Below, piece by piece: positions 15,185 to 50,641 of a stretch of DNA of 64,000 nt. The stretch lies in assembly GCA_000710935.1 (NCBI GenBank), contig BAYV01000109.1:124001-188000 (forward strand), in the 5' to 3' direction. The notes under the pieces were generated by a model. That model was not told the origin of the DNA. It made no database searches and saw nothing but the letters and a program-made list of their open reading frames with translations. Numbering within the stretch: the stretch's first letter is position 1; each line of letters begins with the position of its first letter. The translations under genes and the position numbers were made by a program. Source of the stretch: Iodidimonas nitroreducens (GTDB lineage: Bacteria; Pseudomonadota; Alphaproteobacteria; Sphingomonadales; Rhodothalassiaceae).

Positions 15185-16032
15185 TCCTTTTCCTTTTGAT
15201 GCGAGCTTGCTTCCCGGGCCGAATGCAACCTTAAAATCGCTGCTGCGGTTTCCTCAATGGAGCGCCGGGTAACATCGATCACCGGCCAATGATTGTCGCT
15301 GCACAAACGCCGACAGGCCAGAACCTCAAGCTTCACCGCCTCCATATCCACATAAGCTGTAGACGGAGCTTCGCGCATGGATCGCAGGCGATTGGTGCGC
15401 ACCTGCACCAAACGATCCGGGCTTGCGGTTAATCCCACCACCAGTGCATTCAAGGGTCCATAAAGCTCGGGCGGCAATACAGCATTGGGAACAAAAGGAA
15501 TATTGGCCGTTTTAAAGCCCTTGTTTGCCAGATAGATACTGGTCGGCGTTTTTGAGGTGCGCGACACCCCCACCAGAATAATATCGGCCGACAGCAGATC
15601 ATGGGCCATCTGCCCATCATCATGGGCCATGGTGTAATGCAGCGCATCGATCCGATCAAAATAATCGCGATCCATTTCATGCTGCCGGCCCGGCAGGCCG
15701 CGTGATTGCGCCCCTAAAAACTGGCCCAGAGCGCTGATCACCGGATCCAGAACCGATACATGCTGAATATTAAGAGCCGAACAATGACGGGTCAATTCCC
15801 GACGGATGTCCTCATTGACAAGGGTATACATCACCAGCCCGGGGCGATCTTCGATGAATTCCATGATCCGTTCCATCTGGCGCGCTGTGCGCACCATAGG
15901 CCAGATATGTTTTTCTGCGCGGGCCTCTTCAAATTGAACCAAAGCCGCCTTGGCCATGGCCTCCAGGGTTTCCCCGGTTGAATCAGATACCAGATGCAGA
16001 TGAAAACGCTGAGGAGCCGGGGGCTTTTCCAT
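15181..16032 (-). CDS. ppsR: Pyruvate, water dikinase (PEP synthase) regulatory protein, PSRP/DUF299
   Basis: A 283-residue bifunctional Ser/Thr kinase and pyrophosphorylase family member that switches PEP synthase (or pyruvate phosphate dikinase) on and off. HLHLVSDSTGETLEAM lies near the N-terminus and the P-loop-like motif GVSRTSKT at 155-162. The ATG at 16032 is chosen; a GTG at 16047 would add five residues, and neither has a clear Shine-Dalgarno. The gene is the homologue of the one flanking the Caulobacter and Rickettsia origins (RP001 type), opposite hemE. Confidence 0.92.
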   Translation of the reverse strand: MEKPPAPQRFHLHLVSDSTGETLEAMAKAALVQFEEARAEKHIWPMVRTARQMERIMEFIEDRPGLVMYTLVNEDIRRELTRHCSALNIQHVSVLDPVISALGQFLGAQSRGLPGRQHEMDRDYFDRIDALHYTMAHDDGQMAHDLLSADIILVGVSRTSKTPTSIYLANKGFKTANIPFVPNAVLPPELYGPLNALVVGLTASPDRLVQVRTNRLRSMREAPSTAYVDMEAVKLEVLACRRLCSDNHWPVIDVTRRSIEETAAAILRLHSAREASSHQKEKE

Positions 16033-40910: not shown

Positions 40911-40985
40911 TGGAGCGGGCGATGAGATTCGAACTCACGACCCCAACCTTGGCAAGGTTGTGCTCTACCCCTGAGCTACGCCCGC
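40911..40985 (-). tRNA. tRNA-Gly (GCC)
   Basis: On the minus strand the cloverleaf is complete: acceptor GCGGGCG pairs with CGCCCGC, the D arm contains GTAGCTCAGGGGTAGAGC, the anticodon loop TTGCCAA gives anticodon GCC, the T arm contains GTTCGAATC, the discriminator is T and the CCA is encoded. It is 75 bases with CCA and no intron. Confidence 0.97.
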
Positions 40986-48088: not shown

Positions 48089-48808
48089 ATGGCGCGCGAT
48101 TTGGTGGCGGCATTGTTTTTTACACTGGGATCCTTGGCCGGCCTTGATGCCTTGGCCCAGGATCGTGACGCAGAGCCAAGCGAACCGCTTGCACAGTTGA
48201 GCGAGCAGCATGTGGAAAGCGATGGCCTTTCCCAAAGGATCGATAAGGTTGAGGCGTTCCTCAATGGGATCGATACCCTGAAATCCGATTTCATTCAGAT
48301 CGCTGATAATGGCACCATCACCCGGGGGGTTTTGTCTCTGGATCGTCCGGGGCGGTTGCGCTTTGAATATACCGATGAAACACCGCTTTTGCTGGTGAGC
48401 GATGGCACGCTATTGAGCTTTATCGATTATGATGTGGGGCAGGTGACACGCTGGCCCATCGATGATACGCCGCTGGGGATTCTGGTTCAGGACAAAATCG
48501 ATCTGCGGGCGGCGGATGCCATGGTCAACAGCCTTGAGATCGGCGGGCAATCGGTCATTCTCGTGTCTGTGGATGATCCTGCCGATAATCAACAGGGCAA
48601 TCTCACCTTACTGATCGAGGAAACACCGCAGCCCGATGGCCCCCCCAGCTTAAGCCTGCGAGGCTGGGAGGTGATGGACGGGCAAGGCGTGGTCACGCGA
48701 ATCAGGCTGGAAAAAACGCGACTCAATCTGGCGCTGGCGGATGAAGAGCTTTGGTCGTTCAAAGATCCGCGCACATTGCCATCCCAGCGGCGGCGGCGCG
48801 GGCGCTGA
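48089..48808 (+). CDS. lolA: Outer-membrane lipoprotein carrier protein LolA
   Basis: A 239-residue periplasmic chaperone for lipoproteins. It has an N-terminal signal peptide (LVAALFFTLGSLAGLDALA), then a LolA-type half barrel: VEAFLNGIDTLKSDFIQIADNGTITRGVLSLDRPGRLRFEYTDE with the typical pattern Q-x-x-x-[DN]-G-x-x-x-x-G-x-[LF]. The segment between signal and domain is longer than usual. The C-terminus ends in a run of basic residues (RRRRGR). It follows ftsK by 94 bases. Confidence 0.92.
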   Translation: MARDLVAALFFTLGSLAGLDALAQDRDAEPSEPLAQLSEQHVESDGLSQRIDKVEAFLNGIDTLKSDFIQIADNGTITRGVLSLDRPGRLRFEYTDETPLLLVSDGTLLSFIDYDVGQVTRWPIDDTPLGILVQDKIDLRAADAMVNSLEIGGQSVILVSVDDPADNQQGNLTLLIEETPQPDGPPSLSLRGWEVMDGQGVVTRIRLEKTRLNLALADEELWSFKDPRTLPSQRRRRGR

Positions 48809-48913
48809 TTTGATAAGCACAGGGAGTATATCGAGGCCGCACGGGAAATTCCTGACAGTCCCGGATTTCCACCAAAAGGTGAGACAAATTGTCCACGCAC
48901 CGGCTCTGCGCCC

Positions 48914-48941
48914 TTGAAATGCCATAGTGGGTCGTTATGTA
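48914..48941 (+). promoter_or_regulatory. Candidate promoter of the 49-kb small RNA
   Basis: TTGAAA (48914-48919) and TATGTA (48936-48941) are spaced by 16 bases. A start six to eight bases further on would fall at the foot of the first stem-loop. Confidence 0.5.
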
Positions 48942-48948
48942 CGGCTGT

Positions 48949-49059
48949 GTGACAGCCTTCCCCTCCCGGAGTTGTGCCCCCCACTTTCCGGTCTGGCTGT
49001 CACGAGACGCATACTGAGCGTCGGTGCCCGGTCGATACCCCCCTCGACCGGGCATTTTT
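48949..49059 (+). ncRNA. Candidate small RNA with three stem-loops and a terminator
   Basis: A compact non-coding unit in the 320-base gap between lolA and the next gene. Stem-loop 1 pairs GTGACAGCC (48949-48957) with GGCTGTCAC (48995-49003), encloses a second stem CCGGA/TCCGG (48966-48970, 48987-48991) and ends in GTG-CCCCC-CAC. Stem-loop 2 is GACGC-ATACTGA-GCGTC (49006-49022). Stem-loop 3 is an intrinsic terminator. The loops and an internal bulge expose C-rich sequences (CCCCTCC, CCCCC, ACCCCCC) able to pair with Shine-Dalgarno regions, as in alphaproteobacterial trans-acting sRNAs. It is not tmRNA, RNase P RNA or SRP RNA. I cannot match it to a named family. Confidence 0.65.
49025..49059 (+). 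terminator. Strong intrinsic terminator of the 49-kb small RNA
   Basis: TGCCCGGTCGA (49025-49035) pairs perfectly over eleven bases with TCGACCGGGCA (49044-49054), with loop TACCCCCC and five T residues following. No coding sequence runs into it. Confidence 0.92.
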
Positions 49060-49128
49060 CTTGTGGCATGAAGGCGTCGGATATCCCCATGCCGGGGTTT
49101 TCATGACTGGACCAAAGGATTTGATCCT

Positions 49129-49746
49129 GTGACCGATCGCCGATCAGATATCCCTTCAGATCCCGGATCAGACGAAGAGACTTTCGAGGTTTTTGAACGC
49201 TATCCGACCTTAGCGGGAGTGGGGCGGCTCACCGCCTTGATCGAGCGCTGCCCGTGGTTTCGGGCGGTGGGCGATCCCATGAGCAAAGCCCTCATGGCCG
49301 ATAGCCAAAACTATTGCGATGCTTTGGGCTTTCCCGAGGCACAGCCGGCGATCCTGCCCTTGTGGGAGGATGCAGCCGGGGCGGCGGAAAGCATCGATCT
49401 CAACAGCCCCGCCTGGGAAGCGGAAGAATTGATGCGGATGGCGGTTTTGCAGGATGCTTTGGCCGAGGTGGATGAAGAAACGCTGGAACTGGTGCTCACC
49501 CATATTGCCGCTAAAGCCGCCCAAAGCGCCGAGGCTGCTGCCCAGGAGGTGCGGGATTTTCTGTTGATCGATGATGAAGCCTTCGTTCGCGCGGCTACCG
49601 GTGCCGCCGTTCAGATGTGCCATCAGGCGGCCCTGCTTTTGGCCTCGGGCGGCGATTCTGATCATGCCATCAGCCATAAATTCAGGATTTTCGAGCATGG
49701 CCGCTGGCCCGTGGGCATCATGGGCGGCACGCTCAATATTTTCTGA
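49129..49746 (+). CDS. Conserved protein of unknown function
   Basis: A 205-residue, acidic, probably cytoplasmic protein with no signal peptide or membrane segment. Helical predictions dominate (AWEAEELMRMAVLQDALAEVDEETLELVLTHIAAKAAQSAEAAAQEV). I do not recognise a domain. The start is GTG at 49129; the usual SD is weak. It sits between the candidate small RNA and xthA and points the same way, 49 bases before xthA. Codon use is like its neighbours, so there is no sign of transfer. Confidence 0.7.
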   Translation: MTDRRSDIPSDPGSDEETFEVFERYPTLAGVGRLTALIERCPWFRAVGDPMSKALMADSQNYCDALGFPEAQPAILPLWEDAAGAAESIDLNSPAWEAEELMRMAVLQDALAEVDEETLELVLTHIAAKAAQSAEAAAQEVRDFLLIDDEAFVRAATGAAVQMCHQAALLLASGGDSDHAISHKFRIFEHGRWPVGIMGGTLNIF

Positions 49747-49795: not shown

Positions 49796-50641
49796 ATGAC
49801 AGCTTCAGCCTATGACACAGCATCGAAGGCTTATCGGCCATCGAAACGCGCCCGTCTGGTCACATGGAATGTCAATTCCGTGCGGGCCCGGATTGATCTT
49901 GTGGATCGTTTCATCAGCCTGCAGGACCCTGATATTTTATGCCTTCAGGAAATCAAGGTGCAAACCGATCAATTTCCCCGCAGCTGGTTTGAAGAGCGCG
50001 GCTATGTTCATCAGGCCATCGCCGGACAGCGCAATCATCATGGCGTGGCGACCTTATCGCGCTTGCCCCTCGAAGAGATTGAAAGCGCCGATTGGTGCCA
50101 GAAGGGCGATGCCCGGCATATCGCGGCACGCCTGCCCGGCGGGGTGAAGCTGCATAATTTCTATGTACCCGCAGGGGGCGATGAGCCAGACCGCGAGGTG
50201 AATCCCCGCTTTGCTCATAAGCTTGATTTTCTTGATGAAATGATCGGCTGGTCAAAAACGCTGGATGAGCCGAGCATCATGGTGGGCGATCTCAATGTCG
50301 CGCCTTTGGAAAGCGATGTGTGGTCGCACCGGCAATTATTGAAGGTGGTCAGCCACACCCCGCCGGAAACCGAACGGATGCACGCCTTGCAAAAAGCCCA
50401 TGATTGGGTGGATGCCATGCGCCATTTCGTGGCGGATGATGAGCCGCTGTTTTCCTGGTGGTCTTATCGGGCGCGGGATTGGCGGGCGTCCAATCGCGGG
50501 CGGCGGCTCGATCATATCTGGGTCAGCCCCTGCCTCAAGGATGGTTTGCGGGGGATGAGCGTGTTCGACGATGCCCGGAGCTGGGATCGTCCATCGGATC
50601 ATGCCCCGGTCATCGTCGATATCGATCTGCCTCTGTCTTGA
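49796..50641 (+). CDS. xthA: Exodeoxyribonuclease III
   Basis: A 281-residue AP endonuclease/3'-exonuclease of base-excision repair. LVTWNVNSVRAR, DILCLQEIK (Glu52), GDLNVAP and the C-terminal SDHAP (His269) form the metal site and catalytic centre. RRLDHIWVSP is typical of the XthA branch. The N-terminus carries about 18 extra residues before the first strand; an internal start cannot be excluded. Confidence 0.96.
   Translation: MTASAYDTASKAYRPSKRARLVTWNVNSVRARIDLVDRFISLQDPDILCLQEIKVQTDQFPRSWFEERGYVHQAIAGQRNHHGVATLSRLPLEEIESADWCQKGDARHIAARLPGGVKLHNFYVPAGGDEPDREVNPRFAHKLDFLDEMIGWSKTLDEPSIMVGDLNVAPLESDVWSHRQLLKVVSHTPPETERMHALQKAHDWVDAMRHFVADDEPLFSWWSYRARDWRASNRGRRLDHIWVSPCLKDGLRGMSVFDDARSWDRPSDHAPVIVDIDLPLS

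Follow-up and report, generated by a model that had tools for sequence, protein, structure and literature searches.

A structured RNA between lolA and xthA in Iodidimonas nitroreducens, probably a divergent counterpart of the Caulobacter regulatory RNA RusT

The region between lolA and xthA of Iodidimonas nitroreducens carries what we judge, with a probability of roughly 0.8, to be a free-standing small RNA gene, a divergent counterpart of the Caulobacter RNA RusT, whose C-rich loops would block ribosome-binding sites, probably with the assistance of Hfq. In our analysis this reading is based on the gene structure, the covariation, the locus and a shared 11-mer, while the transcription of this copy, the role of Hfq, the targets and the trigger are inferred by analogy. 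The window analysed here is a stretch of 64,000 nucleotides of contig BAYV01000109.1, and all coordinates are given within it unless a locus is named.

The genes of this part of the window run in the order ftsK, lolA, RNA, ORF205 and xthA, all on the plus strand, and a response regulator of the OmpR/PhoB type is also among the nearest genes. The features are the following.

48089..48808, plus strand: lolA, upstream syntenic marker (Pfam LolA, 63.4 bits against a cut-off of 23.6)
48913..48918, plus strand: predicted -35 element CTTGAA (CTTGA invariant in 6/6 aligned family members)
48935..48940, plus strand: predicted -10 element TTATGT (TAnnT, 48936-48940, invariant in 6/6 aligned)
48948..49061, plus strand: predicted small RNA gene, RusT-like, about 114 nt (fold z -5.63, model matches, pair changes)
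48948..49004, plus strand: stem-loop 1, an outer stem with a nested inner hairpin (fold; 8/10 outer-stem pairs changed on both sides)
48959..48969, plus strand: TCCCCTCCCGG, presumed seed and paired flank (CCCCTCCCGG invariant in 6/6 aligned family members)
48977..48982, plus strand: CCCCCC, tip of stem-loop 1 (invariant in 6/6 aligned)
49006..49022, plus strand: stem-loop 2, the middle hairpin, variable in sequence with the helix kept (4/5 pairs changed on both sides)
49023..49061, plus strand: intrinsic terminator with 13 pairs, C6 in the loop and a T-rich tail (terminator scan, fold)
49129..49746, plus strand: ORF205, 205 aa, downstream syntenic marker (kept at the same place in the family loci)
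49796..50641, plus strand: xthA, exodeoxyribonuclease III type, downstream syntenic marker (Pfam Exo_endo_phos, 92.1 bits against a cut-off of 24.5)

The region 48940-49065 has a minimum-energy fold of -56.9 kcal/mol, compared with a mean of -37.48 (sd 3.45) for shuffled sequences (z -5.63), and none of the 200 shuffles folded as well. This fold contains three stem-loops at the positions given in the preliminary description. The outer stem of stem-loop 1 comprises 10 bp (48948-48957 with 48995-49004), and its inner hairpin spans 48966-48991. In the terminator scan, the hairpin at 49023-49056 has 13 pairs around an 8-nt loop; the intrinsic terminator proposed earlier is thus present, but it is slightly longer than the 11 bp first assigned to it. 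The C-runs described as exposed in loops are indeed so in the fold: UUCCCCUC is unpaired in the internal loop of stem-loop 1, with the CCGG directly after it paired, CCCCC is exposed in the apical loop of the same stem-loop, and CCCCCC is exposed in the terminator loop. As for the claim that the unit has no coding capacity, the plus strand holds no ORF of at least 60 aa inside it. On the minus strand two ORFs (48589-48984 and 48759-49055) overlap the unit; this overlap is presumably due to chance. Judged from its sequence, 48948-49061 on the plus strand is a real structured RNA gene, with transcription predicted.

Conservation within the bacterial family bears out this structure. A DNA search found copies in six of 40 genomes, including that of I. 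nitroreducens itself, and the five foreign copies share the gene order. A covariance model built from six sequences matched once in each of the seven family genomes searched, in all four genera, although six of these seven genomes had built the model and only one (G003) is independent. An order-wide search with stricter filters reached an E value of 0.01 in 7 of 246 genomes, all of them from the same family. The six-way alignment contains 25 consecutive invariant columns, CCCCTCCCGGAGTTGTGCCCCCCAC, beginning with CCCCTCCCGG. The 11-mer TCCCCTCCCGG is present in five of the seven family copies; one copy (L006) has a single base changed in it, and it is absent altogether from the copy of the independent genome (L013). 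That copy (L013:1501-1607, minus strand) scores 50.2 bits with the family model. Its stem-loop 1 shares little primary sequence with the window RNA, and by eye it keeps the plan of a C-rich inner bulge, tip and terminator loop.

The preservation of the stems by compensatory changes had been put forward as a test in the preliminary description, and the outcome agrees with it: 14 of the 37 pairs were changed on both sides, compared with 6.1 in shuffled alignments, and none of the 500 shuffles gave so high a number. Slid controls gave 0-4 such pairs. The number of further pair types was not above that of the shuffles (200 of 500 as high). The scored structure came from the window's own fold, and the cells-paired measure was therefore favoured; RNAalifold, run on the same family alignment, recovers the same helices. 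The alignment also bears on the suggestion that the region holds only a terminator and chance hairpins in the 3' region of lolA, with no separate RNA gene. A generic promoter scan, which found no sigma-70 site, would fit such an explanation. However, two-sided changes affect 8 of 10 pairs in the outer stem of stem-loop 1, 4 of 5 in stem-loop 2 and 2 of 13 in the terminator, and both the promoter block and the 25 consecutive columns are invariant, so that we regard chance hairpins as extremely unlikely.

The promoter-like pair proposed earlier is upheld by the conserved CTTGA and TAnnT blocks, but not by the sigma-70 consensus scan. Our promoter prediction is therefore founded on the blocks conserved in the six-sequence family alignment rather than on a consensus scan, and the spacing to the -10 element would place the start of the RNA near 48948. 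Upstream of the -35 element, GACAAATTGTC forms a perfect short palindrome (48883-48893), which is absent from the aligned family copy L003. In two loci of Caulobacter-like genomes (L112 and L119), palindromes of the type TTGTGA-N-TCACAA, presumably CRP/FNR-like, precede the presumed rusT promoter. The exact sigma-EcfG motif, GGAAC-N16-18-GTT, has one match in the window (15488-15511) and none near the RNA.

The order ftsK-lolA-RNA-ORF205-xthA is kept in the five foreign family loci and in the G003 locus. ORF205 has no Pfam or NCBIfam match, and its relatives adjoin xthA in several other alphaproteobacterial loci. The RNA sits just 5' of ORF205, with 72 nt between the end of the terminator stem and the start of the ORF, and this position, kept in the family loci, would suit a cis-acting leader or attenuator of an ORF205-xthA unit, in which expression of the genes that follow would depend on whether transcription terminates at 49056. 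Such a role is at odds with other lineages, in which the RNA directly precedes xthA without ORF205, and with the location of the most conserved bases, which sit largely in loops according to the fold and the alignment. The published RusT, moreover, acts in trans (PMC11005374). We consider a leader very improbable, and prefer a free-standing RNA gene.

A free-standing gene of this kind is known from the same locus in Caulobacter crescentus. RusT (CCNA_R0199, 118 nt) is an iron-responsive regulatory RNA encoded on the plus strand between lolA and xth, and it represses TonB-dependent receptors in trans (PMC11005374). As described in that report, it has four stem-loops, the last of which is the terminator; the seed spans nt 45-57, and its C53 sits in the loop of the second hairpin; Hfq binds at stem-loop 3 (nt 72-87) and the regulation is Hfq-dependent; and the RNA is induced by iron starvation or zinc under the control of NtrX (PMC11005374). 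The word "undescribed" in the preliminary description is therefore wrong for the locus, from which RusT has been published, but right, so far as seen, for the present lineage. In its passages on homologs, on orthologs and on Alphaproteobacteria, the RusT report does not speak of a broader distribution (PMC11005374), and the literature on a small RNA between lolA and xthA or xth, on RusT and on R0199 gave no other account of such spread among the matches listed. New here are the spread beyond Caulobacteraceae and the rewired fold.

To relate the window RNA to RusT, we used locus L119 of a Caulobacter-like genome, which we equate with RusT because the published landmarks match; L119 is thus presumably the RusT counterpart, matched by these landmarks alone. 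Counted from the inferred start, its slot holds an RNA of about 118 nt with four stem-loops (fold z -3.45, 1 of 200 shuffles as good), in which the second loop, AUUCUAUCCCCUC, carries position 53 within its C-run, the CCGG after AUUCUAUCCCCUC is paired, and the third stem-loop lies at nt 68-87. The published seed position, mapped on L119, falls in UCCCCUCCCGG, the 11-mer common to the window RNA. If the link to RusT is true, CCNA_R0199 would hold UCCCCUCC around nt 45-57.

RusT and the window RNA are alike in their intergenic position between lolA and xth, in their strand, in their length (118 and about 114 nt), in the terminal intrinsic terminator and, presumably, in the C-rich seed. The 11-mer TCCCCTCCCGG is common to the window RNA and L119, and the two folds agree in leaving the C-run unpaired and the CCGG paired, albeit with different partners, an upstream CCGG in L119 and a downstream CCGG in the window RNA. 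The larger architecture differs more. While RusT has four stem-loops, the window RNA has three, the first of them nested; the seed lies in the loop of its own hairpin in RusT, but the presumed seed of the window RNA lies in the internal loop of the nested stem-loop 1. The window RNA also has two further exposed C-runs, and an extra ORF (ORF205) separates it from xthA, unlike at the RusT locus. Because of the three stem-loops instead of four, we call the RNA RusT-like, a divergent counterpart rather than a canonical RusT. We consider it very probable that the window RNA and RusT are distantly related.

RNAs of this kind probably stand at the same locus in many other alphaproteobacteria. We compared two sets of loci: 80 named loci from an XthA alignment scan, which are the best 80 of a longer list, and a second set from the order of Parvularcula mediterranea, which we take to be Caulobacterales in GTDB. 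XthA is present in all 60 genomes searched from this order, 59 of which supplied a locus (G288 was left out). Among the 80 named loci, 22 of the 28 matches of the family model, from which the family locus L013 was left out, lie in the same-strand slot upstream of xthA or ORF205, compared with an expected 0.49; in the 59-locus set, 26 of 30 matches lie in the slot on the right strand, compared with an expected 1.47. Most of the matches outside the family are individually weak. The best non-family E value among the named loci is 0.011, and the strongest matches in the second set are those of L146 (E 3.9e-5) and L120 (E 0.0086). Neither of the two Kordiimonadaceae loci (L016, L017) gave a match to the family model, and the same was true of the loci from Brucella, Martelella, Ciceribacter and Nitratireductor; the model matched in the slot of one of the five Mesorhizobium loci (L046). 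Sphingomonas sp. SRS2 shows a weak match (G251:C142:7381-7498, minus strand; 29.6 bits, E 0.38).

The 11-mer follows the same address. For this comparison, a slot reached at most 450 nt upstream from ORF205 or xthA and was cut off at lolA in those loci where lolA had been identified, and 123 of 139 loci were counted, 15 slots shorter than 100 nt and L103, from the same genome as L021, being omitted. Outside the window's family, TCCCCTCCCGG occurs in 23 of the 123 slots (8 of 74 named loci and 15 of 49 in the second set) and is absent from 100; lolA bounds 13 of the 23. It occurs in none of the 123 slots on the opposite strand, and nowhere in the remaining locus sequence of 1,705,642 bases over both strands. 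Among the 46 slots in which the gap between lolA and the next gene is 150-450 nt, a run of at least six C is found in 26 on the sense strand versus one on the antisense strand, and CCCCTCCC in 21 versus one. These motifs were picked after the slot sequences had been seen and the loci are mutually related; therefore, the counts are strong but are not independent trials.

Likely copies are found in the Parvibaculum, Parvularcula and Aquisalinus loci, most of them with the 11-mer, and in the Sphingobium, Sphingopyxis and Prosthecomicrobium loci, which have C-rich loops at the right position without the 11-mer. The folds differ among these likely copies. On ten whole genomes reached through the loci, model R1 found the RNA in one at E values up to 5, and the locus search found copies in several of the same ten (for example L092); the first filter of the whole-genome search loses weak copies, and absence there therefore means little. 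We think it reasonably probable that RusT, rather than being peculiar to Caulobacter, is the part so far known of an old RNA family anchored at this locus across several alphaproteobacterial orders, including the window's family, Parvibaculum, Parvularcula, Sphingobium, Sphingopyxis and Prosthecomicrobium. An 11-nt C-rich seed block would have been kept in many of these lineages, while the fold was repeatedly rewired and extra C-loops were gained or lost, the window's family having two of them nested in one stem-loop. A small RNA reported from one bacterial family would thereby become a traceable family with a fixed address between lolA and xthA and a recurring seed, for which an Rfam family could be built, and the targets and the link to iron and NtrYX would become comparatively testable across alphaproteobacteria. 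The case also shows that gene order and a loop motif together can trace short, fast-changing small RNAs that escape ordinary searches.

Comparison with other known RNAs leaves RusT as the relative that we propose. At gathering score, the only Rfam match in the whole window is a tRNA (40914-40985), and no family matches at the place of the RNA, whether here or in six other-lineage loci. The best sub-threshold scores, both set aside, were those of 6C (RF01066; 18.3 of 47 bits) and anti-hemB (RF02837; 16.5 of 49.5 bits). The aR8 RNA (RF00519, suhB) was also rejected, having no match in the window and a separate copy elsewhere in the same genome (G000:C77:10167-10242).

C-rich loops or cores do recur in unrelated alphaproteobacterial small RNAs. 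The aR8, MmgR and SisA-D RNAs, as reported, resemble the window RNA in being short and terminator-ended with a C-rich core, UUUCCUCCCU (PMC12559287). PmaR, described from Agrobacterium and one Rhizobium strain only, has an accessible C-rich loop, but differs in its locus and its one long stem (PMC6234868). GsrN has, like the window RNA, a C6 loop, and its six cytosines are held to pair with G-rich mRNA; the same source gives it a sigma-T promoter and predicted homologs that typically lie beside ecfG/nepR/phyR, C. crescentus excepted (PMC5869019). The window RNA, in contrast, lies between lolA and ORF205/xthA, and phyR, ecfG and nepR are not among its nearest genes. We set GsrN aside because of this locus and because no exact sigma-EcfG motif lies near the RNA.

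The recurrence of such loops, together with three stem-loops where the presumed RusT of L119 has four, could mean that the window RNA is an independent, lineage-specific C-rich anti-Shine-Dalgarno RNA that came to occupy RusT's intergenic region by convergence and not by common descent. However, convergence would have to produce the same locus, strand and approximate length, an identical 11-mer not present anywhere in the searched background, and model matches in the slot far above chance, and we find it rather improbable. Descent in common with RusT accommodates the evidence better. Synteny, covariation and the conserved loops give good support to the identification, made at the outset, of a small RNA of the trans-acting type whose loops are C-rich and resemble an anti-Shine-Dalgarno sequence.

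By analogy with RusT, and from the conservation of the loops, the most likely mechanism is that of an Hfq-assisted, translation-blocking small RNA acting through C-rich loops. Transcription would begin near 48948 from the gene's own sigma-70-type promoter and stop at the intrinsic terminator, giving an RNA of about 114 nt. The outer stem of stem-loop 1 would present two single-stranded C-rich stretches, UUCCCCUC and CCCCC, and these may pair with G-rich sequences at or near the ribosome-binding sites of target mRNAs and thereby block their translation. Hfq would probably bind at the middle hairpin and the U-tail; stem-loop 2 may correspond to stem-loop 3 of RusT, to which Hfq binds. On the same analogy, the targets would most likely be outer-membrane TonB-dependent receptors, and the most likely trigger would be iron stress acting through NtrYX. 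The genome (3.08 Mb) has genes for Hfq and NtrY, the separate aR8 and 43 matches to TonB-dependent receptor barrels, and parts of the RusT circuit are therefore present.

Pairing with the receptors was evaluated for 40 of the 43 start regions, the three weakest matches being left out, in two target tests. Both are weakened by the simple rule used to guess start codons and by control ORFs that may not all be genes. Compared with 41 window ORFs, the receptors formed stronger duplexes with the seed over -40..+20 (p 1.6e-4), whereas over -100..+60 they did not (p 0.096), and the corresponding values for the terminator loop were 7e-4 and 0.21. Neither the apical loop (p 0.36 and 0.40) nor the whole interior of stem-loop 1 (p 0.17 and 0.34) showed a preference for receptors over these ORFs. 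Against 130 control ORFs the receptors again gave the stronger seed duplexes, and the p value was 1.5e-6 for the seed, 4.0e-6 for a generic anti-Shine-Dalgarno sequence and 4.6e-9 for the aR8 core; among starts with a good Shine-Dalgarno sequence only (20 versus 14), it was 0.083 for the seed and 0.015 for the generic sequence. Ten of 200 reorderings of the seed separated receptors from controls as well. Since the generic sequence, the aR8 core and some reordered seeds do similarly, we claim no target specificity.

The genome's own aR8 RNA lies upstream of one of the TonB-dependent receptor barrel matches (C77:11318-13009). In Sphingobium sp. Leaf26, an aR8 RNA (RF00519) is found between ftsK and lolA (L078:3660-3735), and two C-rich RNAs therefore flank lolA in that strain.
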